Counted from the stretch's first letter, positions 6,077 through 58,414 are shown. The stretch is DNA of 64,000 nucleotides from Colwellia sp. (GCA_029938115.1 JAPYOP010000017.1:10971-74970), one strand, 5' to 3'. Translations and numbers: made by a program. Notes: generated by a model not told the origin, from the letters alone.

Positions 6077-7726
6077 ATGAAGTTAAAAATGCTAACTAAA
6101 GTTGCTGCAGGCCTGACATTGATATTGTCGGTATCGGCTTGTACCACTGATGTTAAAGATACTGAAGTGAGTCAAAAGAGTGAAGCTGTTAAAAAGCTCA
6201 ATATTTTATATATTATGTCTGACGATCATACCCGCCAAGCTATTGGTGCTTATGGTGGCCTGCTTGCGCCATTAAACCCTACACCTACAATCGATGCTTT
6301 AGCAAGTGAAGGTACTCGTTTTGATAATGTTTTTGTAACTAACTCTATCTGTACTCCGAGTCGTGCTAGCATTATCACCGGCCAATATAGCCAAACTAAT
6401 GGCGCGCTAGATTTAGATGGTAAAATTGGTGTAGAGAAACAGTATTTACCTAAGCTAATGTCAGAAGCGGGTTATGAAACAGCAATGATAGGTAAGTGGC
6501 ATTTAAAAAAAGAGCCTAAAGCTTTTGATTATTATAAAGTTTTACCTAATCAAGGTAAGTATTTTGATCCAGTGTTTCGAGATATGAATGCAAAGGGAAA
6601 ATGGCCAAATAATAAAGTACAGATTAAAGGACATTCTTCCGATGTAATTACTGATTTGTCGATTGACTGGTTATCAAAACGGAATAAAACTAAACCTTTC
6701 TTTTTAATGCATCACTACAAAGCGCCGCATGATATGTTTGAAAACGCGCCACGTTATGATGAATATTTAGCTAATGTTGAAATTCCTGAACCTGCTAGTC
6801 TATATAATCAGCCTAAATGGGGCTCTAAAGCGACTAAAGGTGAAAATAATTCCTTAATAAATGAGATTGGAACCTCCGTATCAAAGCGTAATCCACGTAG
6901 AAATATGGGCATTCATATGGAAGTTGACCAAGAACTTTCTGATAATGAATATACTCATCAATCATATCAGCGCTACTTAAAGCGTTACTTACGTACAGTG
7001 AAAGGGGTTGATGATAATTTAAAACGTTTGCTAGATCATTTGAAGGCTATTGGTGAATATGACAATACCGTGATCATTTATACGGGCGACCAAGGAATGA
7101 TGCTTGGAGAACATGATTTAATTGATAAACGTTGGATGTATGAGCCATCATTACGCATGCCATTTATCGTTCGTCACCCTCAAAAAGCAAATGCACCTAA
7201 AGTGAATGATACCATTATCAATAACACTGATTTTGCCCCTCTAATGTTAGATATTGCGGGAGTTGAAACACCTGAATATATGCATGGTAAGAGTTTTGCT
7301 GACGTATTTGATAACAAACCTCTTGAAAACTGGAGAGAGGCAACGTATTACCGTTATTGGATGCACCGTGCACATCATGATGTACCATCACACTTTGGTG
7401 TACGTAGTAAAGATCATAAATTAATTTTCTTCTACGGTGAGCACTATGATAATTCCCCTGTTCAAAGTGATATAAACTACGCAGGCCGTAATTGGAGTCG
7501 CAAAGATGGTGTGATCCCTTCTAAAACACCAACACCTGCTGGCTGGGAACTTTATGACTTAAAGAATGACCCGAATGAATTGAATAATCGTTACAATGAC
7601 CCTCAATATAAAGAAGTTATTGCTAACCTTAAAGCTGAGATGTTAAAGCAACGTCAAGCCTATGGCGAAACAGATGTTAACTATCCTCATATTCAAAAAA
7701 TTATTGATAAACATTGGAATGATTAA
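6077..7726 (+). CDS. S1-family sulfatase, putative lipoprotein
   Basis: 549 aa; 'SICTPSRASIITGQY' formylglycine motif, 'MSDDHTRQAIGAYGG', 'GKWHLKK', 'GDQGMMLGEHDLIDKRWMYE'; lipobox-like VSAC. Confidence 0.93.
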   Translation: MKLKMLTKVAAGLTLILSVSACTTDVKDTEVSQKSEAVKKLNILYIMSDDHTRQAIGAYGGLLAPLNPTPTIDALASEGTRFDNVFVTNSICTPSRASIITGQYSQTNGALDLDGKIGVEKQYLPKLMSEAGYETAMIGKWHLKKEPKAFDYYKVLPNQGKYFDPVFRDMNAKGKWPNNKVQIKGHSSDVITDLSIDWLSKRNKTKPFFLMHHYKAPHDMFENAPRYDEYLANVEIPEPASLYNQPKWGSKATKGENNSLINEIGTSVSKRNPRRNMGIHMEVDQELSDNEYTHQSYQRYLKRYLRTVKGVDDNLKRLLDHLKAIGEYDNTVIIYTGDQGMMLGEHDLIDKRWMYEPSLRMPFIVRHPQKANAPKVNDTIINNTDFAPLMLDIAGVETPEYMHGKSFADVFDNKPLENWREATYYRYWMHRAHHDVPSHFGVRSKDHKLIFFYGEHYDNSPVQSDINYAGRNWSRKDGVIPSKTPTPAGWELYDLKNDPNELNNRYNDPQYKEVIANLKAEMLKQRQAYGETDVNYPHIQKIIDKHWND

Positions 7727-19767: not shown

Positions 19768-20784
19768 TTATGTGAGTTCTATTACAGCTTTAACTACGCC
19801 AGATTCTGGTTTTACCCATTCTGGGAATATAGTTGTAAACTGATCAAATGTTGTTCTATGTGTCACCATGTTAGCGGATTTTACTTTGCCATTTTGAATA
19901 CAACTAACCACATGTTCAAAGTCTTCTTTAGTTGCATTTCTACTTCCCAGAAGTGTTGTTTCGCGTTTATGGAATTCAGGGTCACTGAAACTAATATCTG
20001 CTTTTACCACACTTACAAATACTAACGTTCCGCCATGAGCAAGCCATCCAAAAGTAGACTCCATTGCTTTTGGGTTTCCTGTGGCATCAATAATGATAGT
20101 GGGAAACTCGCCGTTTGTAAGTTCCTCTAACTTTGATTTCACATCAGTTTTACAGTCGATGATTTCATCAATGTTAAATTCTTTTTGACAGAAATCTAAG
20201 CGTTCTTCATTTACGTCGGCTACAAATACTTTTGCACCTGTTACTTTTGCAAACTGTGCTACGCCTAACCCTATAGGACCAGCACCAAGAACCATTACCG
20301 TATCTGAACTCGATGCTCTTGAACGACGGACAGCATGGGCACCAATTGCCAGACACTCTACAATAGCTAGTTGATCAAAAGGTAAACCCTCGGTAATAAC
20401 AATATGACTAGCAGGAACACATAAATATTCACACATACCGCCATCACGGTGAACACCGATAACCTCAATATTAGTACAGCAATTTGGCTTGCTGTTTCTA
20501 CAAGCTACGCAAACACCACACTCTAAATAAGGGATAACAAAAGCGGACTTGCCAATAGGAAGGTCAACATTTTCACCTAACTCAATTATTTCTCCAGCTA
20601 ACTCATGACCCAATACTCGAGGATAAGAAAAGAATGGTTGATTGCCACCAAAAGCATGAATATCTGTACCACAAATTCCAATAGCGCGTATCTTTAGTAA
20701 GACCTCTCCCTCTTTAGGGTTAGGCTTAACAGCAGACTCCATTACCAACTCACCTGGTTTTTTACAAATTATAGACTTCATCAT
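19768..20784 (-). CDS. Zn-dependent alcohol dehydrogenase, RspB/L-galactonate 5-dehydrogenase-like
   Basis: 338 aa MDR; 'GICGTDIHAFGGNQPFFSYPRVLGHELAGEI', Cys-rich structural Zn loop 'LECGVCVACRNSKPNCCTNIEVIGVHRDGGM'. Confidence 0.8.
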   Translation of the reverse strand: MMKSIICKKPGELVMESAVKPNPKEGEVLLKIRAIGICGTDIHAFGGNQPFFSYPRVLGHELAGEIIELGENVDLPIGKSAFVIPYLECGVCVACRNSKPNCCTNIEVIGVHRDGGMCEYLCVPASHIVITEGLPFDQLAIVECLAIGAHAVRRSRASSSDTVMVLGAGPIGLGVAQFAKVTGAKVFVADVNEERLDFCQKEFNIDEIIDCKTDVKSKLEELTNGEFPTIIIDATGNPKAMESTFGWLAHGGTLVFVSVVKADISFSDPEFHKRETTLLGSRNATKEDFEHVVSCIQNGKVKSANMVTHRTTFDQFTTIFPEWVKPESGVVKAVIELT

Positions 20785-27710: not shown

Positions 27711-27820
27711 CCGCTAACTTTAATTAAAGTGTTAACCAAATTCCTTGTTATCTATTATTGCCCAGCTGAGTTTATTAGTTGGGTAATTTTTTATCTGTAA
27801 CTATATTACTGGTGCTGTAT

Positions 27821-30016
27821 ATGCGTAATAAACGATTAATTAAACTCTTGCTATGCAGCTTAGTTGCAAGTTCACCAGCATGGGCTGCGACTAAAATACA
27901 CGTTACGAGTGATGGAACAGAAAAAGGTAATGGCAGTATAGAAAAACCATTTGCTAACTTAGATCAAGCAAGAAATAAAGTAAGACACTTGCCTAGTAGT
28001 AAAAAGAGTCAGGGTGTTGAGGTTATTGTGCATCAAGGCAAGTATTTGGTAAATAAAACAATTCAGTTTTGGAAGGCTGATAGTGGTTTGGAAAAATTTC
28101 CCATCACATATAAAAATGCAAAAGGTGAAAACCCTGTTTTTTTTGGTGGAACCATTTTACCTGCAGATAAGTTCTTGTCTTTAACCGATGCACATTTCAT
28201 TAATAACCTTGTTGATAAAAATGCGGCAAACCATATTAAAGTGATAAATCTCAAACAGCTCGGTATTACCGATTATGGAGAGATTACCCGTCATGGTTGG
28301 AATATTCATAACTCTAGTGAAAGAGTTGCCCCAGTAAGCTTGCAAGTGGCTGGCAAACGAATGACCTTAGCCCGTTGGCCAAATGTCGATGAAGATAGCG
28401 AGTTTATGACTTATCAACACTATCTACCAAAGAATAGACCATTACGCGGTTATGAGAAAAAAGTCCAAGCAATCATCGATAATGCGCATTTACCGGGTGA
28501 TGTTACTTTCACTCATGTGGTTGACGAGGGAGATAGTGCTTCACAAAAACCAAAGGGTAAAGGTGGCACTTTTGCCGTTGCATTTGACCGCATGAAGTAT
28601 TGGCAAGATATCGAGAATATCTTTGTTGATGGCGTTTTTGCCTCTACATGGGAGTGGAGTTATAACCGACTCGCTAAAGTTAATATAGATAAGCGTGAAA
28701 TTACCCTCGCTGAGCCAGAGATTAATGGCGTGGGAATAGGAGAGTCAGTCCGTTTACCACATTTTCATTTTGATAATATTCCTGAAGAAATTGATCAAGC
28801 GGGTGAATACTATATAGATCGTGTTAAAGGATTATTGTATTTATACCCCCCAGAAAACTTCCAAGCGCTAGATATTGTCTTAACCACACTAAAAGGGCCA
28901 ATGATAGCCATTGAAAATGCACAAAACATTGTCTTTGATGGTTTAAGTTTTACCAGTGGCCGTGATATTGCTTTTAAAATTAATCGTAGTCATAAAATTC
29001 ACATTAAAAATGCCACCATTGCAAACTTTACCAAAGGTGGTATTGCCATAAACGGTAATAATAATGTGGTTTATAATACTCATCTCTATGGGATTGGCGC
29101 GTACGGAGTGCACTTAAATGGTGGTAATAAGCAAACCTTAAGCCCTGCTAACAATTTGGTGCTTAATTGTCATATCCATGACTTTGGTTGGGATCAAAAA
29201 TCCCAACAACCGGGTGTTTTAATTGACGGTGTTGGTCAATATGTCAGCCACTCAAAAATACACGATGGCACTCATTTTGCCATCAGAGTGCGTAATGCCA
29301 ATGACGTGGTAATTGAGCGCAATGAAATTTTTGACTTGCCTAAGTACCATCATTTTGATGGCGGAGCGTTATATGTATTTAGTGGTTACAATGCTCAAAA
29401 TAGAGGTGTTGAAATAAGGCAAAACTATTTCCATGATATTCCAACCATTGGCGTTTACCCTGATAACTATACTTGGGGTGTTCATACTTATGAAAATATT
29501 TTCAACAATGTGGGTGTCAAAGCCAGCAGAGCTGCTGTTTTTGTTAATGCTGGAGGTGATAATCGCACTTATAATAATATTTTTATCGATACGGTTCTGC
29601 CTTATGGGCAAGGTATACAACCTAAAGCTGAGCGGTGGATGACTCACTGGAAAAAAACACAATTACGTTTTGGTCATGGAAAAGTGAACAATACGCCTTA
29701 TGCTAAATATCCCGACTTTATTAGATGGTTAGAGAAAAAAACAGTGGATGAACTCTATCGTGGTAAGAGCTATGTAAATAATAATCTTATTTATAATAGC
29801 CCTAAGGTTCAATTACTCCCTAAGGCCATAAAAAATGGCACTGTTGATCACACTAAAAGCCTACAAGTAGAAAACCAGTGGCTAACAAATACCAATCCCG
29901 GTTTTGTCGATATTGACAAGGGTAACTTTAACCTAAAAAAGAATGCGGAGGTTTTTCAGCATATTCCAAATTTTATCCAACCAGAATTTGATGACATGGG
30001 CTTGATTAAGCGTTAA
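27821..30016 (+). CDS. Right-handed parallel beta-helix enzyme, GH141-like layout, exported
   Basis: ORF track starts at 27779; ATG 27821 gives signal peptide 'MRNKRLIKLLLCSLVASSPAWA'. 'IHVTSDGTEKGNGSIEKPFANLDQARNKVR', 'VAGKRMTLARWPNVDEDSEF', 'GEYYIDRVKGLLYLYPP', multiple beta-helix rungs. Confidence 0.65.
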   Translation: MRNKRLIKLLLCSLVASSPAWAATKIHVTSDGTEKGNGSIEKPFANLDQARNKVRHLPSSKKSQGVEVIVHQGKYLVNKTIQFWKADSGLEKFPITYKNAKGENPVFFGGTILPADKFLSLTDAHFINNLVDKNAANHIKVINLKQLGITDYGEITRHGWNIHNSSERVAPVSLQVAGKRMTLARWPNVDEDSEFMTYQHYLPKNRPLRGYEKKVQAIIDNAHLPGDVTFTHVVDEGDSASQKPKGKGGTFAVAFDRMKYWQDIENIFVDGVFASTWEWSYNRLAKVNIDKREITLAEPEINGVGIGESVRLPHFHFDNIPEEIDQAGEYYIDRVKGLLYLYPPENFQALDIVLTTLKGPMIAIENAQNIVFDGLSFTSGRDIAFKINRSHKIHIKNATIANFTKGGIAINGNNNVVYNTHLYGIGAYGVHLNGGNKQTLSPANNLVLNCHIHDFGWDQKSQQPGVLIDGVGQYVSHSKIHDGTHFAIRVRNANDVVIERNEIFDLPKYHHFDGGALYVFSGYNAQNRGVEIRQNYFHDIPTIGVYPDNYTWGVHTYENIFNNVGVKASRAAVFVNAGGDNRTYNNIFIDTVLPYGQGIQPKAERWMTHWKKTQLRFGHGKVNNTPYAKYPDFIRWLEKKTVDELYRGKSYVNNNLIYNSPKVQLLPKAIKNGTVDHTKSLQVENQWLTNTNPGFVDIDKGNFNLKKNAEVFQHIPNFIQPEFDDMGLIKR

Positions 30017-43357: not shown

Positions 43358-44812
43358 TTATTTTATATTCTTCATATAAACAGTTTTCTTATCTAGGTAT
43401 TGTTCTAAGCCATACTTTCCATCTTCACCGCCACAACCACTCATTTTTAAGCCATAATGGAAACCTTGATGTTGTTCGCCAATGCCACGGTTTACGTAAA
43501 CTTCGCCGACTTCCATTTCATCAATGCATTGTTCAATCCATTGTATGTTTTTGGTATATAGGTAAGCCGATAAGCCGAACTCACTATCGTTAGTATTTGC
43601 AATCGCTTCTTCAATACTCGATATTCTGATAACAGGCAGTACAGGGCCAAAACTTTCTTCTTGAACAATTGTCATGCTTTGAGTGACGTTTTCTAAAACC
43701 GTAGGCTCATACCAAGCGCCATTTTCAAAGCCTTTTACGATGGCTGGCTTACCACCATATGACAAAGTGGCACCTTCAGCTATGGCCGTTTTTACTTGAG
43801 AATCAATAAAGTCGACTTCGCGCTTATTTACTTTGGGTCCCATTTCACTTTCTGGATCAAGTGGGTTACCTACTTTTAATGCACTGACTTTCTTAAGGAA
43901 AATAGCCATGAATTGATCATAAATTTTCTCATGGACATATAAACGTTCGGCACAGGTACAAACTTGGCCACAATTGGCAAATCGTGCCCAAAAAGCATCT
44001 TCCGCCGCAGATTCTAAATCAGCATCGTCCATCACAATAAAGGGGGCTTTTCCACCTAATTCCAACATCACATGAGTAAGGTGCTCAGCACTGCTATGAT
44101 AAATTGATTGTCCTGCACGGGTACTACCCGTCATGGTGATCATTTTAGTTATCGGACTTTCGCATAGATATTTTCCAAGTTTAGAGCCGGTGCCATTAAC
44201 AATATTTAACACACCTGGTGGTAGGCCAGCCTCATTTGCAATTCGACCTAGTTCCATCGTTGTTAACGGTGTTTCCGCTGTAGGTTTTATTACTATGGTA
44301 TTTCCGGTGATTAAGGCAGGTCCTATTTTTCTCCCCGCTAACGCGAGTGGAAAGTTCCAAGCAGTAATACCAACAACCACACCTTTAGGGTATTTATGAA
44401 TATATATTTTTTCATCTTGATTATCTGAAGGTAAAATATCACCTTCCATAGTTAATGCATGATCACAGGCATATTCAATAAACGTTGCAGTGGCATCCAC
44501 TTCAATACGGGCAAGAGATAATAATTTTCCTTGTTCTTTTACCAATAATTCAGCTAACCCTTCAGTTTCATTGCGTATACCGGCAGCAAATGTTCTTAGA
44601 ATTTTTGCTCTTTGGCGTGCGGGTATTTTACGCCAGCTTCGCTGCGCTATTTGTGCGGTTTCAAGTGCATATTGCGCATCTTCATTACATCCTGATGGAA
44701 TACAGCCCAGTAATTCACTTGTGCTAGGTGTAAATACTTGAATTTCGCCATCTGCTTTAGAGGGTATATATTCACCATTAATGAAGTTAAGTTTATTTTT
44801 TATATCTATCAT
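43358..44812 (-). CDS. NAD(P)-dependent aldehyde dehydrogenase; candidate 3,6-anhydro-L-galactose dehydrogenase
   Basis: 484 aa AldA-like ALDH; '[30 protein letters not shown]', '[12 protein letters not shown]', '[16 protein letters not shown]'. Confidence 0.88.
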
Positions 44813-44814
44813 TG

Positions 44815-45582
44815 TTATCTCCCCATCCAGCCGCCGTCTACTAAGACGGTGCTACCATTCATGTAATTAGAAGCTTGAGATGCAAGAAATACAATTGGAC
44901 CTGCAAAATCTTCTGGTTGTCCCCATCGACCTTGTGGGATTCGAGCAAGTATTGATTCACTGCGCTGTGTATCTTTACGTAGTGCTTCAGTATTGTCGGT
45001 GGCAATATAACCAGGTGCTATAGCATTGACATTAATACCTTGGCTTGCCCACTCATTTGATAAGGCCATAACGAGTTGGCCTATCGCGCCTTTACTTGCT
45101 GCGTAGCCCGGAACGGTAATACCACCTTGGTAAGTAAGTAAGGATGCAGTAAAAATAATTTTACCTGATTTTTGAGTAAGCATTCGTTTGCCAACTTCTC
45201 GTGTTAAAATAAATTGCGAATTTAAATTAACATTCATGACATGATCCCAATATTCATCGCTGTGATCTACAGCAGGGTCGCGTTTTATTGTACCTGCGTT
45301 ATTGACCAGTATATCAATAGTTTGATGATTCGCATTCAAATCAGCAATAAAACTATATAAATTTTCTCTATCTGAAAAGTCACATTGGTATGCCGTGAAT
45401 TTTTTCCCTAACGAGATAATTTTCTTTTCAATAGTTGAATCCTGTTTTTCAAGCGATGCAGATACGCCAATAATATCGGCTCCAGCTTCGGCAAGCGCAA
45501 CCGCCATACCAAAACCAATGCCTCGTTTACAACCCGTGACCAGTGCTGTTTTACCAGTAAGGTTAAATTGTTCTAAAATCAT
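44815..45582 (-). CDS. SDR-family oxidoreductase (KduD/gluconate 5-dehydrogenase-like); candidate diketo-deoxygalactonate reductase
   Basis: 255 aa; '[25 protein letters not shown]', 'NNAGTI', '[11 protein letters not shown]', '[17 protein letters not shown]'. Confidence 0.87.
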
Positions 45583-45586
45583 AGTG

Positions 45587-46612
45587 TTAAACCTCTGCTT
45601 GACATGAAACTAAGGCTTTCATGCCTTGTGGGTTACCATCCATTGATGAGAAGGCATTATTGATATTTGTTAAAGTCGAAACAGAGCTTATATAAGGGTC
45701 TATATTTATAGCTTTTGTCGCGATAAGTTTGATTGCATTATCAAAATCTTCAGCTTCATATACGCGTGCCCCAAGTAGCTCTAATTCTTTCCAGAAGAGC
45801 TGGAACAGATCTATGGTCGGTTTTTCACTGTGGATAGCTACCATACAAATTCTAGCTCGGACGGCTGTAATTTCTGTCATGGCTTCAATGGCTTGTTTTA
45901 CTCCGGATACTTCAAAGACGACATCTGCTCCGCGACCACTAGTCCATTCTTTAACAACCTTAGTAAGGTCTTCATTTAATGGGTTGATGGTACTAATTTC
46001 ATTGTTTCTGGCAAAAGCAATGCGAGATTCGTTAACTTCTGAAATTAACACCTCAGCCCCTGCTGCTTTAGCAACTTGAGCAACAAGTTGGCCAATAGGT
46101 CCTCCGCCAATAACAACTACTTTTTCGCCCTTGGCTACTCGGGCTCGGGCAACATCATGGCAGGCTACTGCTAAAGGCTCAATTAGTGCCGCTTGTTTAA
46201 GTGAAACGGCAGCCGGTAAACGATGTAATGTTCTCGCTTTAACTGTCCATGAACTTTGAAATGCTCCCGGACTGTCAATGCCCATAAATTTTAAATTATG
46301 ACATATATGCGAATGTCCGGCCATACAAGCAGGGCATGTGCCACAGAAATCTAGTGGTCTTACTACAACCTCCTCACCAAGTTTGAATCCTTTTACATCT
46401 GTGCCCATCTCAACAATGGTACCTGACATTTCATGGCCAATAATCTGTGGCGGAGCAACACGTTGATCCATAACACCATGATAGATGTGCATATCGGTAC
46501 CACAGATACCTACATAGCCTACATCAAGGCGAACTTCATCAGAATTTGGCGTGATGGGTTGACTCGGTACTATGTTAAATTGTTTGTTGCCTATGTATTG
46601 TGCAGCTTGCAT
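45587..46612 (-). CDS. Zn-dependent alcohol dehydrogenase; candidate 2-keto-3-deoxy-L-galactonate 5-dehydrogenase
   Basis: 341 aa; 'GYVGICGTDMHIYHGVMDQRVAPPQIIGHEMSGTIVEMG', 'FCGTCPACMAGHSHICHNL'. Confidence 0.85.
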   Translation of the reverse strand: MQAAQYIGNKQFNIVPSQPITPNSDEVRLDVGYVGICGTDMHIYHGVMDQRVAPPQIIGHEMSGTIVEMGTDVKGFKLGEEVVVRPLDFCGTCPACMAGHSHICHNLKFMGIDSPGAFQSSWTVKARTLHRLPAAVSLKQAALIEPLAVACHDVARARVAKGEKVVVIGGGPIGQLVAQVAKAAGAEVLISEVNESRIAFARNNEISTINPLNEDLTKVVKEWTSGRGADVVFEVSGVKQAIEAMTEITAVRARICMVAIHSEKPTIDLFQLFWKELELLGARVYEAEDFDNAIKLIATKAINIDPYISSVSTLTNINNAFSSMDGNPQGMKALVSCQAEV

Positions 46613-46635
46613 TTTTTAATCCTTGGAAAATATAG

Positions 46636-47745
46636 TTAAAGGTTTATTTTGTGATCACGTAATAGTTCGTCATCAAATACCACTCCATGACCGGGGATAT
46701 CTGGCGCTAAGGCAAAGCCGTTTTCTATTATTAATGGATGTTTTGTGTATTCATCAATGGGAAATGAATGTACTTCTAAGTAACCAGCATGCGGCTGAGA
46801 AGCCATTAAAGAAACATGTAACTCATGCATACCATGACTACATATGGTTAAATTATTTGCTTGAGCAAGTGCGGCAACCTTTAACCACGCTGTAATACCG
46901 CCAATATTGGAGGCATCAGGTTGTAGGAAACTCAGTTGTGCTTGATCTATCGCATCTTTAAACTCATAAATGGTGTGCAAGTTCTCACCCATAGCAAGAG
47001 GAATATTTATTTTGTCTGCTATTTTTGCAAAACCTTGATAGTCATCGGGCAGGGTCGGCTCTTCAAACCAAGTAATGTCGTATTGTTCAAATGCTTGACC
47101 CGCTTTAATCGCTTGGTCTGTCGTCATTGAATAATTGGCATCAATCATGAGATCAACATCTTCACCGATTAAATTTCTGACAGCGGAAATACGTTCTACA
47201 TCGGTTCGATAGTCACTATGACCAACCTTAATTTTGACCGCATTGAAGCCTCGATCTAAATAACTTTGCACATTGCTTAACAGCTTCTTTTTTGAAAAGT
47301 TTAAGTCTATTCCACCTGCGTATGCTTTAGTTTTATTATCATTGCCACCAGCAACACACCATAATGGTAGGTCAAGGCGTTTACAGCGCAAATCCCAGAG
47401 TGCGATATCTACTGCTGATATTGCAAATGAGACAATGCCACCACGGGCAACATAATGTAGGTGCCATGTCATTTGTTCATTTAAATATTCAATTCGATTT
47501 GAATTTTGTCCTTGTAATAAGGGCTTTAACTCTTGTTCTAATATTGAATATATTGCTTGTCCACCTCTACCCCCAGTGTAGGTATAACCAACACCTTGAG
47601 TGCCATCTCGACAGGTTATCTTGCAAAGTATTAACTCAAAGTGAGTATGGTCACCATGCTTTGCATCAGATAATACTTCCGATAAAGGGACTTGATAATA
47701 TTCAATTGAAATATTTTCTATTTCACTATTGGTAGATAAACTCAT
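46636..47745 (-). CDS. Mandelate racemase/enolase-superfamily enzyme; candidate 3,6-anhydro-L-galactonate cycloisomerase
   Basis: 369 aa; 'FNAVKIKVGHSDYRTDVERI', 'MIDANYSM', 'WFEEPTLPDD', 'MGENLHT', 'QPDASNIGGIT'. Confidence 0.88.
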   Translation of the reverse strand: MSLSTNSEIENISIEYYQVPLSEVLSDAKHGDHTHFELILCKITCRDGTQGVGYTYTGGRGGQAIYSILEQELKPLLQGQNSNRIEYLNEQMTWHLHYVARGGIVSFAISAVDIALWDLRCKRLDLPLWCVAGGNDNKTKAYAGGIDLNFSKKKLLSNVQSYLDRGFNAVKIKVGHSDYRTDVERISAVRNLIGEDVDLMIDANYSMTTDQAIKAGQAFEQYDITWFEEPTLPDDYQGFAKIADKINIPLAMGENLHTIYEFKDAIDQAQLSFLQPDASNIGGITAWLKVAALAQANNLTICSHGMHELHVSLMASQPHAGYLEVHSFPIDEYTKHPLIIENGFALAPDIPGHGVVFDDELLRDHKINL

Positions 47746-48034: not shown

Positions 48035-49564
48035 ATGAAGAATTTAATTATTGCCACTTCTTTAATTTTTGCACTTAACGTAAGTGCTAATGTTAAAAAT
48101 AAGGAAGCTAATCAAACAGGAAAGTATCAAGATGATGTTCAAGCAGTACAAGATTGGGCAAAAATTGATAGCCGGCCAATTCCTACCTGGTGGCAAGATG
48201 CTAAATTTGGAATCTTTATCCATTGGGGCGTTTATTCAGTGCCTTCATATGCGGTAAAAGGTACATATTCAGAATGGTATTGGCATAACAAAGACGGCTT
48301 TCCTGTTAAGAAAAAGAAACAACTTCGCCATGATAAAACGAATGAATTTCATGATAAAAACTATGGCAAGGAAAAGCAATACTCAGAATTTGCTGAAGAT
48401 TTTACCGCGGAAATGTTTGATGCTGATCACTGGGCTAATGTTTTCCAAGATGCCGGCGCCAAGTACGTGGTTTTAACCAGCAAACATCACGATGGGTACA
48501 CTTTATGGCCAAACAAGCATGCTTCAGATAGTTTTGGTATGCCGTGGAATAGCCAAGATATTGGACCAAAGCGAGACTTGGTGGGTGAACTCACTGATGC
48601 AGTAAATAAAACCAGCGTTAAAATGGGCTTGTATTACTCTCTTTGGGATTGGTTTAACCCTGTATGGAAGAAAAACAAAGCCGAGTATGTTGATAAAGTT
48701 ATGTTGCCACAAATGTATGAAGTGGTGAATAAATATAAGCCGGAAGTGTTCTTTACTGATGGTGATTGGATCATGGAGTATTCGAAGTGGCGTAGTTTAG
48801 AGTTTCTTGATTGGCTAACAGAAGAATCGCCAGTTAAAGACAGTGTAGTATTTAACGACCGTTGGGGAAAAGTTAGAAAAAATCATGGCGGTTATTACAC
48901 TACAGAATATGGGGCAGGGTTAGCGGATAATTCTCAACCGTGGGAAGAGAATAGAGGAATAGGTTTTTCGTTTGGTTTTAATCGTAACGAAACTTTAGCC
49001 GATTATAACTCTACCCAGAAACTGGTATTGATGTTGGTTGATATTGTCAGTCGCGGAGGTAATTTTCTTTTAGATATTGGTCCTACTGCCGATGGTAGAA
49101 TTCCTGTCATCATGGAAGACCGTTTAATAGAAATGGGCAAGTGGATGAAAGTAAATGGTGAAGCTATTTACGGTTCACGTATGTGGAAACACGACTCACA
49201 ATGGTCAGCAGGAATCAATCCTGGTTTTAATGATGAAGAGAGTTTTGGTGATCGTCGCCACGGTGGTTATGACGTATTGGCCGTAACTGTGAATCCACCA
49301 GAAGGCTATGCGTATAAGGAGTTATTATTTACTCAAAAAGGTAATGATATATTTGGCATGATGCCTGTATGGCCATCGAGCAATAAAATCACCATAAAAG
49401 ATATTAACATTAGTAAAAACACTACTATAACAATGCTTGGAGTGGATAAAACATTAGTTTTTACCAAAACACCGCTCGGCATTGAAGTCACCCTACCGAC
49501 ATTTTTACCTGGTAAATTACCCGCTGAATATGTATGGACCTTAAAAGTTACTAACGCCCAATAA
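48035..49564 (+). CDS. GH29-family exo-glycosidase, exported
   Basis: 509 aa; 'PTWWQDAKFGIFIHWGVYSVPSYAV', 'SKHHDGYTLWPNKHA', 'GPKRDLVGELTDAV', 'VFFTDGDW'. Confidence 0.92.
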   Translation: MKNLIIATSLIFALNVSANVKNKEANQTGKYQDDVQAVQDWAKIDSRPIPTWWQDAKFGIFIHWGVYSVPSYAVKGTYSEWYWHNKDGFPVKKKKQLRHDKTNEFHDKNYGKEKQYSEFAEDFTAEMFDADHWANVFQDAGAKYVVLTSKHHDGYTLWPNKHASDSFGMPWNSQDIGPKRDLVGELTDAVNKTSVKMGLYYSLWDWFNPVWKKNKAEYVDKVMLPQMYEVVNKYKPEVFFTDGDWIMEYSKWRSLEFLDWLTEESPVKDSVVFNDRWGKVRKNHGGYYTTEYGAGLADNSQPWEENRGIGFSFGFNRNETLADYNSTQKLVLMLVDIVSRGGNFLLDIGPTADGRIPVIMEDRLIEMGKWMKVNGEAIYGSRMWKHDSQWSAGINPGFNDEESFGDRRHGGYDVLAVTVNPPEGYAYKELLFTQKGNDIFGMMPVWPSSNKITIKDINISKNTTITMLGVDKTLVFTKTPLGIEVTLPTFLPGKLPAEYVWTLKVTNAQ

Positions 49565-49641: not shown

Positions 49642-52600
49642 ATGTATTGCAACAAAAAAATAATCTCAATATTTACTGCTACTACATTGCTAAGTGCATG
49701 TGGTGGCAGTGATTCAAGCTTAGAAACACCATTACCCATCGAAGCCCCACTTTCATTTGCTATTAGCGGTGTGGTTGATCGACAAGTTAATGAAAATACG
49801 GCTTTTATAAGTAGTACTCCATCCACAAGTGGTGACACACCTATTGGTGCACTCACTTGGTCTCTTACCGGTGTAGATGTTCAATGGTTTAGCATAAATA
49901 GTAGCACTGGCGTTTTTTCTCTTGCGGCTCAAAATTATGAGTTAGCTAAAGATGAAGATACAAATAATGTTTATCAAGTAACTATTGAAACGACAGACAG
50001 TGAGAATAACAAAGCAAGTAAAGCTATTTCAGTAACGGTGCTTGATGTTGATGATGGTGAAGTGATGCCTACGCCAGATCCTACTCCTGAACCAACACCG
50101 GACCCAGTACCAGCACCAGAAGTTTGTGTTGTCTCACCTGAAGCTATCAATAGCAATGCTCTTTATGTTTCACCAACGGGTCTTGATGCTGATATTGTCA
50201 GTGGTTCAGAGGCATCGCCATATCAATCACTCTCTTATGCTTTATCAACCATTGCAACTGCAGGAGTGATTAACGAAGCAGGTTTAACCATTTATTTACG
50301 AGAAGGCGAATATCACGACTCAATCGATAGTTTAAGCTTAAATGGTAGTGAAAATAATCACTTATCGATAGAAGCTTTTCCTTGTGAAACGGTCACTTTA
50401 TCGGGCGCTGCTTCTATAGAAAGTTTTAAGCTTGGTGATTGGCAAAAATTTCATGGTGAAATTTATAAAATTGAAATTGACCGCCCGGTTTGGAAGTTGT
50501 ATGTTGATAATAAGATGCAAATGGTTTCACGTTGGCCTAATGCTAACTTTGACATGCCTTCGATAACAAACACTGCGTCAGTTTATTCTGCAGCTGTATG
50601 GGCTGAAGGCGAACAAGATAGTGGCTCTAAAGGAACGAGCAGTGATGATTGGGGCAACAAAAAGGATGGTATTATGACTAATGATATCAGCGGTTCAGAC
50701 CACCTTGTTACTTATCACAACTTATCTTCAGCAACCGACTATAAAGGTGATCTCCTTGATGTAACTGGAGCCATTATTGTCGCTAATACCGCAAGCTTTT
50801 ATACCTTTACTCGTCAAGTGAAATCTTATAACGACATGGATGATAATTTTAAGGCCTATAATGCGTTTACAGGTGCTTTGCATAATTACCCTAATAAAGA
50901 TATCGCACACCTTCCGGGTAGCAATGTTTTTACTTATGAGCCAAGTTTTAAAGCTTACAAGGCTAAAAAACTCAGTTATTTTCTTGAAGGCAAAGTTGAA
51001 TTAATCGATCAAGCTGGTGAGTGGCACTATCAAGTTGAATCTGGTAAACATTATGTCTATTTATGGCATCCTCAAGGTGGGAAGCCAGCGTCAGATGTTA
51101 ATGTGCGTGATATTGGCTACGCCTTTGATATTGCCAACAGTAACCATGTCACTATAAAAGGTATTAATTTCTTTGCTAGTACACTTCGTTGTAACCCATG
51201 TAATAACATTACCATTGCAGATAATATTTTTACTTATAGTGCCAGTGATAGACGAGTACTCAAAGAGTTTGGCACTACAGATACTGGTTATGGTAGAAAT
51301 CAATATATTGAGCTTTACTCGGCCTTAGATAAACGTATCAATAGCGGTATTGTTTTTAGAAATAACAAGGTTACCGATAGCGGCGTGCAATCGTTAATCG
51401 TTTCTGGTGGTCAATCGGTTGTTACTAATAATCTATTTAAGCGATTAGATTGGACAAGTGCTGATACAGTAACTCCTCATGCAACCGTTATGATCCGTGA
51501 TATGGCTGCGCAAAAAGTAGAGTTTAGCTATAACACCATGGATATTATTGGTAACTCAACTATGTTTGTACCAGAAGGTGGCAGCTTACATGCAACTTTT
51601 AATGATATGGGGACCGGTGGTTTTGCACAAAATGATGGCGCAAGTTTTCAACTACGAAAAGCGCAACAAGCGGCAGTAAATATGGCCTATAATTGGGCTC
51701 ATGACTCAGAAAAATATGGTATTCGCTTCGATGCGCCTTTTAATACTACAAATGAAACATCAGGTGGCCAATGGGGCATGATCCATCATAATGTCGTGTG
51801 GAATGCTAAAGGTATTATGGTCAAAGGTGACGACCATCGTGTCTATCATAATACGATGTGGAATAATAAAGATGTTGATTTACGTATGCTCATTGATAGC
51901 AACATTTTCTATCGCCATGAACGATCTATTGCAGCCAATAACGCAAGTGACTCTATGTCTTCAAAGCGAGATAGAATGACCGATGTTACAGGCTTGTATT
52001 TAGGTGAGAATATGAACGATGCACGTATGAACTTTAATGGTGCGATATTAGACGACTTTCCACTTGAACAAGTATTTGCCGATGAAGAGGCTGAATCTGA
52101 AAGGTTAGAGCCACAACTTATGGATATTCATAACCGTGACTTTAGGCCTAAACGAGGTGGCGAATTGCATGATACCGGGGCGATAATCAATAGCCCTAAC
52201 AGTTATGATAATTATCTAGGCTCTGCTCCTATGCCACAATATATTGAGTCAGTTTCGCAAGGTTTAGCATTAGACTTAGGTGCTTATGAGCTAGATTCTG
52301 CTTATTATTGGATACCCGGTTTCAAAGAAGCACAGGCGAGTTTTCCTATTCCACGTGATGAAATCACTGATAATGAAGCGTTATCGGTTACCCCAACTGT
52401 TTCGTTAATGTGGCGAGAAGCGTATCAAGCAACAGAACATTATTTGTATCTTAGTTCGTCAAAAACTGACATAGAGCAAGTAGAAATTGCTGATTTAGAC
52501 CATTCAACATATAAGGGAACCTATAGAGCGAGTGAGGCTAATATTTTTCAAGACAGTGACGGTTTGAGCGTTGGAACTTACTATTGGCGAGTTGATGCTT

Positions 52601-52653
52601 TAGTTAAAGGGCTGGTTGTTAAAGGCAGTCTTTGGCAGTTTACCGTTAATTAA
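49642..52653 (+). CDS. Lipoprotein: cadherin-like domain, Thr/Pro/Asp linker, right-handed beta-helix and C-terminal Fn3-like module
   Basis: 1003 aa; lipobox 'LSACGGSD'; 'FSINSSTGVFSL...DVDD' cadherin-like; 'PTPDPTPEPTPDPVPAPE'; 'LYVSPTGLDADIVSGSEASPYQSLSYAL' beta-helix start; C-term 'YYWRVDALVKGLVVKGSLWQFTVN'. Confidence 0.7.
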   Translation: MYCNKKIISIFTATTLLSACGGSDSSLETPLPIEAPLSFAISGVVDRQVNENTAFISSTPSTSGDTPIGALTWSLTGVDVQWFSINSSTGVFSLAAQNYELAKDEDTNNVYQVTIETTDSENNKASKAISVTVLDVDDGEVMPTPDPTPEPTPDPVPAPEVCVVSPEAINSNALYVSPTGLDADIVSGSEASPYQSLSYALSTIATAGVINEAGLTIYLREGEYHDSIDSLSLNGSENNHLSIEAFPCETVTLSGAASIESFKLGDWQKFHGEIYKIEIDRPVWKLYVDNKMQMVSRWPNANFDMPSITNTASVYSAAVWAEGEQDSGSKGTSSDDWGNKKDGIMTNDISGSDHLVTYHNLSSATDYKGDLLDVTGAIIVANTASFYTFTRQVKSYNDMDDNFKAYNAFTGALHNYPNKDIAHLPGSNVFTYEPSFKAYKAKKLSYFLEGKVELIDQAGEWHYQVESGKHYVYLWHPQGGKPASDVNVRDIGYAFDIANSNHVTIKGINFFASTLRCNPCNNITIADNIFTYSASDRRVLKEFGTTDTGYGRNQYIELYSALDKRINSGIVFRNNKVTDSGVQSLIVSGGQSVVTNNLFKRLDWTSADTVTPHATVMIRDMAAQKVEFSYNTMDIIGNSTMFVPEGGSLHATFNDMGTGGFAQNDGASFQLRKAQQAAVNMAYNWAHDSEKYGIRFDAPFNTTNETSGGQWGMIHHNVVWNAKGIMVKGDDHRVYHNTMWNNKDVDLRMLIDSNIFYRHERSIAANNASDSMSSKRDRMTDVTGLYLGENMNDARMNFNGAILDDFPLEQVFADEEAESERLEPQLMDIHNRDFRPKRGGELHDTGAIINSPNSYDNYLGSAPMPQYIESVSQGLALDLGAYELDSAYYWIPGFKEAQASFPIPRDEITDNEALSVTPTVSLMWREAYQATEHYLYLSSSKTDIEQVEIADLDHSTYKGTYRASEANIFQDSDGLSVGTYYWRVDALVKGLVVKGSLWQFTVN

Positions 52654-52716
52654 TCAGTAGGTTAAACTTAAATAAGCCGCTACTTTTATTTGGCGGTTTT
52701 TTTATGTAAAGCAATA

Positions 52717-52728
52717 ATTGTTAACAAT
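52717..52728. promoter_or_regulatory. Putative operator ATTGTTAACAAT (perfect)
   Basis: Upstream of the likely GH117 lipoprotein start (52834). Confidence 0.65.
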
Positions 52729-52833
52729 CGACAATTGTATGTAAGATTTGTTATAGTGGTAACTAGGATTACGGATTGTTTCAATACTTGTGTTCAATCT
52801 AACTTTATCCATTATTATATGAGTGTATTAACT

Positions 52834-54036
52834 ATGAAAATTTTTTGTGGAACAACCCTGTATTTGTCTCTTTTATTGCTATTGTTGACTGGGTGTGATG
52901 ATAAAGATTTAACGCTTTCAGCTGAAAAGATACCGGTAAAACCTCAACAAAGCGCGGCTATGCAAAGGCATGTGGTTAATGATAGTGATAATGAACTTTA
53001 TGGTCGCTTCAAGTATCAGCCGTTAGATGGCTTAGGTTATGAAGAAGGAATTCACCGTAGAGATCCAAGCTCGATAATAAAAGTCGATGACGTATATTAT
53101 GTTTGGTATACCCGATCTAAAGACCCAAAATTAAGCTGGCTCAATGCTGATATTTGGTATGCAACGAGTAGTGATGGCGTTAAATGGCAAGAGCAGTCTG
53201 CAGCTGTTAAACGTGGGGCACATGGAGAATATGATGATTTAAGTGTCTTCACTACAAATATCCTAGTAGCCGAGGGTAAATATTACTTAACTTACCAAGC
53301 AGAAAAAAAAGACGGCTATGAAATCAATGTTGTTGCCATGGCAAAAGCGGACTCACCTGATGGACCATGGCAAAAACTGTCAAAACCCATTTTAACGCCC
53401 ACTTATGATGGTGAATGGCAGCCACACCCTAAGTGGGATAATAAACTTGTTGCCGTAAAATCAGGCTCTTGGGATAGCCGAATGGTGCATGATCCTGCTG
53501 TCATTCCTCGTTTTGGAAAATACTTTCTTTATTATAAAGCTCATGGTATAGGCGATACCATGTGGGCTGATTCTAAATGGGGCGTAGCCATTGCGGATAA
53601 ACCAGAAGGCCCTTATATTAAAAGCCCATTAAATCCAATTACAAATAGTGGTCATGAAGTGTGGGTATGGCCATGGAAAGAAGGCATCGCTGCAATTGTA
53701 GATTGGGCAGGCCCAGAAAAATCTACGGTGCAATATAGTGCTGACGGAGTTAACTTTGACGTTAAATCAACGTTAGAAGATGTACCTCCTGCTGGTGGGG
53801 CTTATATTGCTGATAAGTTTGACGATCCTAAAAACGGTCAAGGATTTACATGGGGCTTAGCGCATTATGGGCGCAGTGATTGGACGTTTTTAGTACGGTT
53901 TGATACTCAAATGTTTCAAGGTGTGAAAAAAGATTTATCTTGGAAATCATTCCCTCATTACAGCACAATAAGAGATGTGATGGTTGATCCAGAACGTTTT
54001 GACTTGCCTAAGGGAGCTTTACTAAAACATAAGTAA
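52834..54036 (+). CDS. GH117-like glycoside hydrolase, lipoprotein
   Basis: ORF track starts at 52690 and overlaps the operator; ATG 52834 gives 'MKIFCGTTLYLSLLLLLLTGCDD'. 'IHRRDPSSIIKV', 'VHDPAVIPRFGKYFLYYKAHGI', 'NSGHEVWVWPWKEGIAAIVDWAGPEK'. Confidence 0.87.
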   Translation: MKIFCGTTLYLSLLLLLLTGCDDKDLTLSAEKIPVKPQQSAAMQRHVVNDSDNELYGRFKYQPLDGLGYEEGIHRRDPSSIIKVDDVYYVWYTRSKDPKLSWLNADIWYATSSDGVKWQEQSAAVKRGAHGEYDDLSVFTTNILVAEGKYYLTYQAEKKDGYEINVVAMAKADSPDGPWQKLSKPILTPTYDGEWQPHPKWDNKLVAVKSGSWDSRMVHDPAVIPRFGKYFLYYKAHGIGDTMWADSKWGVAIADKPEGPYIKSPLNPITNSGHEVWVWPWKEGIAAIVDWAGPEKSTVQYSADGVNFDVKSTLEDVPPAGGAYIADKFDDPKNGQGFTWGLAHYGRSDWTFLVRFDTQMFQGVKKDLSWKSFPHYSTIRDVMVDPERFDLPKGALLKHK

Positions 54037-54065
54037 TAGCCAACCTCTTTACTAATATTACCAAT

Positions 54066-54096
54066 GGAGCAGTGCTTTAAGCCTGCTCCTTTTTTA
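54066..54096 (+). terminator. Rho-independent terminator
   Basis: GGAGCAG-tgctttaagc-CTGCTCC-TTTTTT. Confidence 0.8.
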
Positions 54097-54209
54097 TAAC
54101 TATCAGTTTCTTTACATAGCCTTTACATAACTACTCTTGCAAAAAATAGCCATATTGCGTATTATTTATAAAAAACATAGTTTAAGTCGGCTTATAAAAG
54201 AAAGATATT

Positions 54210-55772
54210 ATGAAATATAACAAAATTCGATTAGCTATCAATGCGCTATTGGTCACTACATTTTCAGCTTACTCATTAATGGCTCGAGCGCTCCCTGAAG
54301 ACGGTAATGTAAAGACTGAAATGTTTGAGCCCACTATTGAGTCATTGCAACAATATAAAACACCGGAATGGTTTCGTGATGCAAAACTTGGAATTTATTT
54401 GCATTGGGGGGCATATTCTGTCGCAGAGCGTGGCGAGTGGTATGCCCGTAAAATGTATCAACAAGGCACGGCAGAATACAAACATCATGTAAAAACCTAT
54501 GGTCACCCATCCAAGTTTGGTTACAAAAATTTTATCCCGATGTGGAAAGCTGAAAACTGGGATCCGGATGCCTTAGTTGCCTTATTTAAAAAAGCAGGAG
54601 CTAAATATTTTTCTCCTGCGGCTGTTCATCATGATAATTTTGATTTGTGGGATTCAAAATACCATAAATGGAATTCTGTCAACATGGGTCCCAAACGTGA
54701 TATCACTGGTGAGTGGAAACAAGCAGCAGAAAAGCATGGTTTACGTTTTGGTGTCACCACCCATTTATCTCGTGCATATAGCTGGCTTAATGTCGCTAAC
54801 CAGTCTGATAAAAAGGGGCCGTTAAAGGGCGTGCCATATGATGGTGACAACCCTGAATTTGATGACTTTTATTTTCCAAAGCATGATGATACTCATAAAC
54901 GCGCTGCTGAAAAACCACCAAAATGGTGGCGTGATCAGTGGGCTGCCCGTATGAAAGATTTAATTGAAAAATATGATCCAGACCATTTCTATTTTGATAG
55001 TGCAGTACCTTTTCGTGGTGAAGATGCCGGTAAAACAGGCATGGAAGTTATCTCGTACCTTTATAATAACAGTATGAAAAACAATGATGGAAAACAAGAA
55101 GCGGTTATGGCGATTAAAGCGCGTCCATGGCAAGGCTTATATGCTGAAGGAATGGCAACTTTAGATTTTGAACGAGGTAAAGCAAGCCATATTTTAGATG
55201 AACCTTGGCAAACTGACGATTCTTTAGGCTCTTGGGGTTATAACACACAGTGGCCTAATGGCTTTATGGACACCAATATGGTGGTTGATAAATTCTTAGA
55301 CATGATCAGTAAAAATGGCAACATGCTATTAAATATTCCCATTAAAGCCGATGGTACTTTAGATGATAAAACGGTAAACGTTTTAGAAGGCATGGGAGAG
55401 TGGTTCGACATTAATGGCGAAGGTGTTTATGGCTCTCGTCCTTGGTATATGTATGGTGAAGGTAAAACCAATGAAGTACCTCATAAAGCAACAAAATCAC
55501 CGTTTAAGAAAACAGATATTCGCTTTACCACCAATAATGGGTATTTATATGCTTTTGTTTTGGACTGGCCAGGAGCTGGTAAAGAGGTAACGATAGAAAA
55601 TATTACCGCGATGAATAATCGATTATCTGCGGTTGAATCGGTTTCTATGCTTGGCAGTGATAGTCACATAAAATGGCGTGAGAATGGCGATGGTTTAAAA
55701 ATCACTATGCCTAATAAAAAGCCTGGTGCTCATGCTTTTACCATGAAAATAAAGTTTAAAGGGCGCTTTTAA
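54210..55772 (+). CDS. GH29-like exo-glycosidase, exported
   Basis: 520 aa; 'PEWFRDAKLGIYLHWGAYSVAERGEWY', 'AVHHDNFDLWDS', 'GPKRDITGEW', 'DHFYFDSAVPF'. Confidence 0.87.
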   Translation: MKYNKIRLAINALLVTTFSAYSLMARALPEDGNVKTEMFEPTIESLQQYKTPEWFRDAKLGIYLHWGAYSVAERGEWYARKMYQQGTAEYKHHVKTYGHPSKFGYKNFIPMWKAENWDPDALVALFKKAGAKYFSPAAVHHDNFDLWDSKYHKWNSVNMGPKRDITGEWKQAAEKHGLRFGVTTHLSRAYSWLNVANQSDKKGPLKGVPYDGDNPEFDDFYFPKHDDTHKRAAEKPPKWWRDQWAARMKDLIEKYDPDHFYFDSAVPFRGEDAGKTGMEVISYLYNNSMKNNDGKQEAVMAIKARPWQGLYAEGMATLDFERGKASHILDEPWQTDDSLGSWGYNTQWPNGFMDTNMVVDKFLDMISKNGNMLLNIPIKADGTLDDKTVNVLEGMGEWFDINGEGVYGSRPWYMYGEGKTNEVPHKATKSPFKKTDIRFTTNNGYLYAFVLDWPGAGKEVTIENITAMNNRLSAVESVSMLGSDSHIKWRENGDGLKITMPNKKPGAHAFTMKIKFKGRF

Positions 55773-55821
55773 CGTTGTGATGTTTTAAAAGTTTTGAATG
55801 TGGGTTCCCAACCGCATCATT

Positions 55822-55850
55822 GCCAAACCTAGCAGTTTGGCTTTTTTTTA
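55822..55850 (+). terminator. Rho-independent terminator
   Basis: GCCAAAC-ctagca-GTTTGGC-TTTTTTT. Confidence 0.8.
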
Positions 55851-55900
55851 GTAAAACTCTATTGGTTTAAAAAAAACAGAGTTTGTAGAATGAGAATGTT

Positions 55901-58414
55901 ATGAAAAAATTACTGCTAATACTTTTTTTCTTGCTAGCAAATAACACCATTGACGCACAAGTTTATTTTGTTGCCACTAACGGCAATGATAATGGTGATG
56001 GGTCCGTTAGGCAGCCTTTTTTAACCATTAAAAAAGGCGTAACTAAATTGAGTCCAGGAGATACACTTTATTTAAAGCAAGGTCGTTATTATGAGCAAAT
56101 TGCTGTGAATGAAAAACGCGGGACAAAATCGCATCCTATAACCATTGCCGCAGCGCCTGGAGAACACGTCATTTTAGATGGCACTGATTCATTACCCGAT
56201 AACTGGCAACTAGTAACACCAGAGTCAAGAGCAGGGAAATTAATACAAGATGCGCAATGGTCGCGTTTAAAAGGCAAGCTATACAGTCTTGAATTAACTA
56301 ACCCTATTTATTCATTAATATATAACGATAAGTTGATGAGTGATGCACGTTGGCCAAATGCTCGTTGGAATGATCCATGGCGATTAGATCGCTATATGGT
56401 GCTTCGCAGAGCGTCAGAAAAAAGTACAAAAGGTAAGATTGAAGATGCACTTTCAACTAAAAATGCTTTAGCTGAATCAAAAACATGGCTAAATTACGAT
56501 CGTAGCAAATTAAACCACCGTAATGAAACGCTGGCCAATACGGGAGTTTCATTTGAAAACTCTGTTGCTATTCTAAGTTACGCTTGGGGCAGTTGGGCAA
56601 CTGATGTTGAAGCGCATCAAGCAGGTGAAAATTCTTTCACTTATGATACAGAGTTTAAAAACAGCGGCAGTATTCAAAAAGAAGCAAAAGGGTTCTTAAA
56701 TAATCGAATTGGTTGGAATAAAGCAAAAAGCAAATTTAAACGTAGTTCTCATTCTGGACTGAGTTATTTCTTGATGGGCTTAGCCGCACTCGATATAGAA
56801 GAAGAATGGTGGTATAACCAAGCTACTAGTACCTTGTATTTTATGCCACCTGATGGACAAAAACCGACAGCAGGTAGTGTCAGAGGTAAACGTCGTGATT
56901 ACCAATTGGTGGCAAAAAACAGTCAATACCTAACTATATCAGACTTTGAATTTTATGGCGCTGCCGCATTGTTAAATGAAGTTGAAAACTCGGTATTACA
57001 AAACAGTAAATTTCATTTTTCTGCTTCTCAGAAATTTTCCGTTGGCAATTATGACATTCCAGTCACGACAAAAATAGTGAATAAATATCGTAAAAGAGAC
57101 AGAAGTATTTTACATGGTAATGTTTTGAAAAATAATCAGTTTACCTACCTTGATGGTAATGCTTTTGAAGGTAGAAGTACGGGACTTACTATTGACAATA
57201 TACTGATTTATCAAACTCAACAAACCACCTTAGGGTTGGACTCTCGTTCAATGAGTATTGATCGGCCCTTACTAGTTAGACGAGTTACTATTAGTGATGT
57301 TGGCGCATCTGTAGGTATCAAAGGGGGAGGGCTGGATTCTACTTACGAGCTTAATAATATTACGCGATTTGGCGGCTTACAATACGACGGCTCTAGTTTA
57401 CAAATGGGAGGCAGAAAGCAGTTTATTTATCGCTACAATTGGTCACACGATCACCCTAAGCGCTCTTACCGGTTTGACGCTGGGAGCTACCCTGATTTTG
57501 CTAACGCTTTTGGTGAAATGAGCTACAACGTCGCCTGGAATACTCCCGGAGGTTTTGCTATTAAAGGTGATGACCATTTAATTCACAATAATTTATTAAT
57601 AGGTGATACCGGCTTTCAACTGTTTAATATGAAGCGTTGGGCAAGTAAAAATGAACGAACCTTAGTAGCAAATAATATTGTGCCTTACTTTTCTGCCGGT
57701 AGTTATGACTGGGACAAACCTGTGCAAAAGAAAAGTACTAAATCCGCTAAGGTATATACTTCATCTGACTTTTGGTTAAAAGAAAGTAAAAGTAATAAGA
57801 AGGTTAATCAGCACAAAGAGAGCCAATTTGATGATGGTAATAAAGCTAAAAAAAGGAAGTCAGTTGTTTTAGCGATTGATAAAAATAATTATCATCAATC
57901 GGCAGATCTGGTTTTGCGTGATATTAAAAATTTAGACTTTAGACCTAAAAAAGATTCAGTACTTATTGATGCAGGTTATCAAATTAAAGCGGTTGATGTT
58001 CCATGGAAAAATATTGCGATAACAGGTAATAAATCATCCAAAGGTCGAACAATCGATATTGGTCCTTATGAATTTGGCGCACCTAACTATTGGATACCAG
58101 GATTTAAGTTTAATACTGCTTCAACGCCTATACCACCTTTGCACGCACAAAGCGTTAAAAGAGATGCGTCATTAATGTGGCTAGGTGCATATGGTGTGAA
58201 CAAGCATCAGCTTTATTGGTCTATTAACCAGGAAGAATTACGTATAGCAGATAAAGACAGTAATGCTTATAAGGGAGAATATATCAACGACCATAATGTT
58301 CACCCATTTAAGGACAAACTGCTCTCAGGACAAAAAGTGTATTGGCGAGTTGATGCTGTTAAAGGTAATGGCATAATCGTCAAGGGCGATATATGGTCGT
58401 TCACCGCAGAGTAG
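55901..58414 (+). CDS. Exported right-handed beta-helix protein with C-terminal Fn3-like module
   Basis: 837 aa; 'YFVATNGNDNGDGSVRQPFLTIKKGVTKLSPGDTLYLKQGRYYEQI', 'PITIAAAPGEHVILDGT'; C-term 'VYWRVDAVKGNGIIVKGDIWSFTAE'. Confidence 0.75.
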   Translation: MKKLLLILFFLLANNTIDAQVYFVATNGNDNGDGSVRQPFLTIKKGVTKLSPGDTLYLKQGRYYEQIAVNEKRGTKSHPITIAAAPGEHVILDGTDSLPDNWQLVTPESRAGKLIQDAQWSRLKGKLYSLELTNPIYSLIYNDKLMSDARWPNARWNDPWRLDRYMVLRRASEKSTKGKIEDALSTKNALAESKTWLNYDRSKLNHRNETLANTGVSFENSVAILSYAWGSWATDVEAHQAGENSFTYDTEFKNSGSIQKEAKGFLNNRIGWNKAKSKFKRSSHSGLSYFLMGLAALDIEEEWWYNQATSTLYFMPPDGQKPTAGSVRGKRRDYQLVAKNSQYLTISDFEFYGAAALLNEVENSVLQNSKFHFSASQKFSVGNYDIPVTTKIVNKYRKRDRSILHGNVLKNNQFTYLDGNAFEGRSTGLTIDNILIYQTQQTTLGLDSRSMSIDRPLLVRRVTISDVGASVGIKGGGLDSTYELNNITRFGGLQYDGSSLQMGGRKQFIYRYNWSHDHPKRSYRFDAGSYPDFANAFGEMSYNVAWNTPGGFAIKGDDHLIHNNLLIGDTGFQLFNMKRWASKNERTLVANNIVPYFSAGSYDWDKPVQKKSTKSAKVYTSSDFWLKESKSNKKVNQHKESQFDDGNKAKKRKSVVLAIDKNNYHQSADLVLRDIKNLDFRPKKDSVLIDAGYQIKAVDVPWKNIAITGNKSSKGRTIDIGPYEFGAPNYWIPGFKFNTASTPIPPLHAQSVKRDASLMWLGAYGVNKHQLYWSINQEELRIADKDSNAYKGEYINDHNVHPFKDKLLSGQKVYWRVDAVKGNGIIVKGDIWSFTAE

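Follow-up and report, generated by a model that had tools for sequence, protein, structure and literature searches.

Among the glycoside hydrolases (GH), family GH141 includes BT1002, an α-L-fucosidase acting on rhamnogalacturonan II, as well as Xyn141E and the Wf141 endo-fucanases. BT1002 depends on the residues D523 and D564 (PMC10154630), and DG and RxD signatures have been described in marine GH141 enzymes (PMC12786026). A separate point of reference is the porphyran polysaccharide utilization locus of Bacteroides plebeius, in which the downstream steps of an L-galactose-6-sulfatase (BpS1_11) and an exo-α-L-galactosidase (BpGH29) are accompanied by GH16 and GH2 enzymes (PMC12316285). Here we describe two β-helix proteins, BHL-1003 and BHL-837 (BHL being a working name for their family), encoded in a 64,000-nucleotide stretch of Colwellia sp. 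DNA (GCA_029938115.1 JAPYOP010000017.1:10971-74970, hereafter the window). Their cluster has the same two downstream steps as the B. plebeius locus, but differs in carrying TonB receptors, GH117 genes and GH141-like β-helix proteins. The BHL proteins resemble GH141 in the right-handed β-helix, an insertion domain near the N-terminus, an aligned DG/RxD aspartate pair and marine GH29/S1 contexts. They differ in falling below the Pfam GH141_M cut-off, in their low structural identity to BT1002 (12-13%), in having an FnIII tail of their own and in being separable by profile.

Homology and architecture of BHL-1003 and BHL-837

The open reading frames (ORFs) of BHL-1003 (49642..52653, 1003 amino acids, aa) and BHL-837 (55901..58414, 837 aa) both lie on the + strand, in agreement with the original prediction. 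The two proteins are 26% identical over 882 columns (BLASTP, 205 bits, 5e-59); the homology excludes chance and spans the entire common length, beyond the C-terminal tail alone. BHL-1003 is a lipoprotein whose signal (49642..49701, + strand) carries the lipobox LLSAC at residues 16-20, including Cys20, as read by eye from the translation. An N-terminal Ig/cadherin-like domain (also by eye) and a Pro-rich linker are followed by the GH141-like β-helix with its insertion domain and a C-terminal FnIII-like domain, as judged from the homology to BHL-837, a sub-threshold GH141_M match and the family alignment and profile. BHL-837 is exported (signal peptide by eye) and comprises a GH141-like β-helix, an insertion domain, a disordered clade-specific insert (residues 601-653) and a C-terminal FnIII-like domain.

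The shared tail YWIPG...YWRVDA...WxFT, previously described as conserved, is indeed present in both proteins (52306..52650 in BHL-1003 and 58088..58411 in BHL-837, both + strand). A Foldseek search with the AlphaFold model of BHL-837 returned FnIII domains as fold matches of this module, to which the module of BHL-1003 is homologous by alignment. In the archaeal branch of the family the tail is missing, matches stopping near profile position 600-640 of 738. As an ordinary FnIII-like accessory domain that is absent from a whole branch, the tail was rejected as a functional signature and does not inform on activity; the β-helix is the informative part.

The alternation of the two genes with GH29 and GH117 genes was likewise found as described, in the order GH29a, BHL-1003, GH117, GH29b, BHL-837, all on the + strand. 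GH29a (48035..49564) belongs to the α-L-fucosidase family (PF01120, 2e-109), and the protein at 52690..54036 is a GH117-type 3,6-anhydro-α-L-galactosidase (4ak5, 6.5e-88) whose true start is probably downstream of the listed TTG. GH29b (54210..55772, 2e-98) has the exo-α-L-galactosidase 7ljj among its closest solved structures.

Relation to GH141

In searches with hidden Markov models, neither BHL-1003 nor BHL-837 passed a curated Pfam or NCBIfam cut-off, and both thus remain unassigned, as originally stated. The GH141_M insertion domain reached 15.9 bits in BHL-1003 against a cut-off of 27 and gave no match in BHL-837; among the 14 relatives of the family alignment, 8 displayed below-threshold matches to this Pfam model (best 5.1e-5). 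A family profile built from the same alignment matched PDB chain 9rx2 (5e-20), a GH120 xylosidase (7e-18, N-terminus only) and the GH141 enzyme BT1002 (5mqp, 4e-16, in two stretches), the last match taking in the LD..GEW motif of the insertion domain. The likeness to the GH120 β-xylosidase XylC (3vst), which was also the second-best fold match, concerns the N-terminal β-helix rungs; the sequence match is limited to about 100 N-terminal residues, with no full-length relation. True GH141 proteins encoded next to BHL genes scored only ~1e-20 with the profile, so that it tells them from BHL members. Literature searches among open-licence papers returned no published description of the family. BHL is apparently an unnamed and uncatalogued family related to GH141, and both proteins are very probably glycoside hydrolases. 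Membership of GH141 itself is not claimed, because the sole model test available, the GH141_M cut-off, was not passed.

Predicted fold and active site

The AlphaFold model of BHL-837, computed with 30 relatives, attained a pLDDT of 82.5 and a pTM of 0.86. The model and its first Foldseek match in the PDB, BT1002 (3e-18, followed by GH120 at 2.5e-14 and GH136 at 5e-6), both indicate a right-handed parallel β-helix catalytic domain as in GH141. Of the families earlier suggested for structural comparison, GH141 was therefore upheld, while PL6, GH82 and GH110 were not supported as closest relative. GH110 and PL6 share the right-handed β-helix, albeit with far poorer fold matches (3.2e-5 with a TM of 0.24 for GH110, ~1e-3 or worse for PL6). 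Agar and porphyran contain no uronic acid on which a lyase could act, and the Pfam Chondroitinas_B match was short, N-terminal and sub-threshold (18.9 bits against a cut-off of 24, over 55 residues); for these reasons a lyase reading (PL6, chondroitinase B) was dropped. The residues D119, E120 and E218 are listed as candidates for GH174, the family of the endo-fucanase Fun174A (PMC11943901); no GH174 structure occurred among the PDB matches of the family profile.

Two aspartates are predicted to be catalytic. In BHL-837 these are Asp496 in the QYDG motif (57386..57388, + strand) and Asp526 in the RFD motif (57476..57478, + strand), equivalent to the Asp of the GH141 DG motif and of RxD, respectively. 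In the family alignment they correspond to Asp665 (51634..51636, + strand) and Asp697 (51730..51732, + strand) of BHL-1003. With hhalign, the pair aligned with the DG and RxD/PDN motifs both in the GH141-like protein A2 (98.5%) and in BH-745 (A3, 99.4%). The BT1002 fragment YDVAGVYTLGSQPKSYVTENCVHS agrees in spacing with the BHL motif YDGSSLQMGGRKQFIYRYNWSHD, and it is by this motif spacing, not by direct superposition, that the pair is equivalent to D523/D564. Conservation is high, Asp496 being retained in 104/104 sequences, Asp526 in 98/104 and Lys555 of the KGDDH motif (57563..57565, + strand) in 101/104; Asp298 and Glu302 are both present in 106/106. The distances from 496 to 526 and on to 555 are 30 and 29 residues, each about one β-helix rung, which suggests that the three positions are stacked on successive rungs.

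BH-745 (27779..30016, + strand) is a third GH141-like β-helix protein of the window, in which the same Asp pair was found by profile alignment. It has two larger relatives upstream (G000:C74:340-8240).

A porphyran/agar-type cluster

The galactan assignment of the locus was borne out and can be narrowed: the cluster is of the porphyran/agar type, as seen from its L-galactose-6-sulfatase, the exo-α-L-galactosidase-like GH29b and four GH117-like genes. The sulfatase, S1_11-549 (6077..7726, + strand; 7lha, 1.6e-193), has a very close counterpart in the exo-L-galactose-6-sulfatase from the B. plebeius porphyran pathway, and the three further GH117-like proteins are 40-61% identical to that at 52690..54036. 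On the - strand, a block at 43358..47745 comprises an aldehyde dehydrogenase, a short-chain dehydrogenase/reductase, an alcohol dehydrogenase and an MR/MLE enzyme; judged from these families, and with the same block occurring in G007 and Labilibacter (see below), it probably serves anhydro-L-galactose catabolism. The genes at 13353-20784 would fit an L-fucose/L-galactose-type pathway.

The window had been reported to lack recognisable GH16, GH50, GH86, GH96 and GH118 enzymes. For GH16 this holds, no Pfam match being found in the scanned window ORFs of at least 150 aa, nor was any GH2 match found in the scanned ORFs. GH50, GH86, GH96 and GH118 are less rigorously excluded; the GH86 model PF18206 gave no match, but had no positive control. 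No known enzyme of the cluster accounts for cutting of the chain, a step that the BHL proteins may perform. That depolymerisation is otherwise unexplained applies to the window and to an orthologous cluster in another phylum; it does not extend to the whole genome, where GH16 genes are present on other contigs.

Related loci

In an uncultured Colwellia (G007) the same cluster is found, mostly at 70-87% identity. Its BHL-1003 module (55%) does not lie between GH29a and GH117, but is found at the C-terminal end of a protein of 3574 aa. Other parts of this protein match the unknown-fold protein C74:8210-11077 and the β-helix proteins C74:340-8240, which are encoded just upstream of the window; the fusion argues that the fused proteins work on one substrate. 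In Labilibacter (Bacteroidota), an 18-kb cluster contains a GH117 (69%), two BH-745-like proteins (39%), SusD- and SusC-like proteins (by eye), a second GH117 (58%), GH29c (68%) and BHL-837 (59%). No GH16/50/86-like ORF was recognised in this cluster, whose genes were identified by similarity to the reference proteins of the present analysis. At a second Labilibacter locus (L053), a BHL gene stands beside the anhydrogalactose block. GH117 was looked for in seven BHL-bearing Colwellia genomes and turned up only in that of the window and in G007; consequently, the BHL forms of the window go with anhydrogalactose pathways, and other Colwellia BHL proteins with sulfatases and GH141.

Scanning genome contigs with a single protein as query gave no relatives. 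With the family alignment as query, 269 were returned, the best 80 of which were kept, giving 76 loci; since the scan used one degenerate pattern, the counts are lower bounds and biased. More than 100 members were found, in Bacteroidota, Planctomycetota, Verrucomicrobiota, Lentisphaera, Vibrio, Photobacterium, Colwellia, Neomarinimicrobiota and marine Euryarchaeota. In a tree of 104 sequences, BHL-1003 grouped with proteins of other Colwellia and relatives, and BHL-837 with its Labilibacter orthologue, adjoining Pontiella and Opitutae proteins that neighbour a GH29b-like gene (~60% identity). Neighbours were counted within 10 kb on either side, with the window's own proteins as references. In loci L040-L085 a sulfatase was present in 32/46, GH29 in 27/46 and a GH141-like protein proper, as a separate neighbour, in 13/46; in the distant, mostly archaeal contrast loci L086-L115 the corresponding numbers were 3/30 for sulfatase and 2/30 for GH29. 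The latter loci encode BHL-like β-helix proteins of marine Euryarchaeota (MGII/MGIII, Poseidoniales) that lack the FnIII tail and mostly have neither gene nearby. One BHL protein (L077:10043-13750) stands on a contig of a Prochlorococcus single-cell assembly and is possibly a contamination. A plasmid search returned distant relatives only, one of them, on a Fusobacteria plasmid, again beside two sulfatases. The family is large, widespread and in bacteria usually placed beside sulfatases and GH29, yet no Pfam or NCBIfam model covering it was found. Once a single activity is assigned, many marine sulfated-polysaccharide clusters would gain an annotation, and a second route to opening porphyran might come to light.

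Proposed function and alternatives

With modest confidence, we favour the reading that BHL-1003 and BHL-837 are paralogous secreted hydrolases of an uncatalogued GH141-like family that act on an L-galactose-containing galactan. Considered by itself, an agar/porphyran-type galactan is the likely substrate. Because L-galactose corresponds to 6-hydroxy-L-fucose, and α-L-fucosyl bonds are the target of part of GH141, the cleaved bond is tentatively taken as an α-L-galactosyl linkage, at somewhat less than even probability. Family, fold, Asp pair and type of locus are computed; we infer the catalytic roles and the division of labour, and offer linkage and endo or exo mode as a proposal. Hydrolysis would proceed by an Asp pair on neighbouring rungs (Asp496/Asp526 in BHL-837, Asp665/Asp697 in BHL-1003), as proposed for BT1002. 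On the cell surface, the polymer would be attacked by the lipid-anchored BHL-1003; BHL-837 would act on imported or secreted oligosaccharides. S1_11 could then take off the 6-sulfate, GH29b the α-L-galactose and GH117 the 3,6-anhydro-L-galactose, and the neighbouring catabolic genes would consume the released sugars.

Several observations weigh against this proposal. Specificity is not transferable from BT1002 at the low identity given above and a TM of ~0.4-0.58, and BHL-837 was not found in G007, though the pathway is kept there. Moreover, GH141 also holds a β-xylanase (PMC5593877, PMC12786026), in line with a rival reading in which the BHL enzymes are GH141-like hydrolases cutting the β-D-galactosidic backbone linkage of agar or porphyran in place of β-agarases or β-porphyranases. 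Such cleavage would expose L-sugars at the non-reducing ends, as GH29b and GH117 need, and would agree with the lack of GH2 and GH16 Pfam matches in the window. Still, we regard it as unlikely, since most bacterial BHL loci adjoin GH29 and S1 genes, a pattern common to α-L-fucose-type systems, and the characterised marine GH141 enzymes cut α-L-fucosyl bonds (PMC12786026).

GH16 genes also occur outside the cluster, five in this genome (C209/C210), three in G007 and 14 in Labilibacter, and several GH2 genes are found elsewhere in this genome. Such a GH16, or some other enzyme from outside the cluster, could hence cut the backbone in trans, leaving the BHL proteins as exo-enzymes that trim side chains or oligosaccharides. 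This is rather improbable: the 313-aa GH16 of C209 had no close match in the examined GH16 loci of Labilibacter or of G007, whose pathway is the same, and attack on the polymer is suggested by the lipoprotein that faces it and by the multi-domain fusion of 3574 aa. Finally, the wider family belongs mainly to GH29/S1 clusters whose target could be fucoidan instead of agar; its members in planctomycetes, Verrucomicrobiota and Bacteroidota accompany GH29, GH141 and S1 genes, an arrangement like that of fucoidan clusters. That the BHL proteins act on another polymer (fucoidan, galactofucan or animal L-galactan sulfate), with incidental galactan neighbours, nevertheless seems very improbable, as GH117 and L-galactose-type GH29 genes alternate with both copies in the window and this association is kept in the orthologous Labilibacter and G007 clusters.

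Other genes of the window and genome

A second sulfated-glycan cluster of the genome (L129-L131, G000:C209) contains GH2 genes together with GH16, numerous S1 sulfatases and a protein similar to the lacto-N-biosidase LnbX. Overlapping the first bases of the window, a gene at L039:8210-11077 (G000:C74:8210-11077) encodes a protein of ~955 aa in which CBM4_9 is the only Pfam match and whose end reaches into a stretch of N. In G007, the conserved N-terminal domain of this protein is joined to the BHL module; the N-terminal domain of the G007 fusion is a candidate for an alternative depolymerase. At the other end (58880-64000), a giant HYR-repeat protein, whose gene runs on to 1929 aa in L038, has a ~150-aa LDIMRL-containing module in common with the upstream β-helix proteins (L039) and the G007 fusion, which may be a binding or sorting module. 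A 251-aa protein encoded at 12219-12974 had no Pfam match at 1e-6, and has a counterpart of 39% identity in the G007 cluster.

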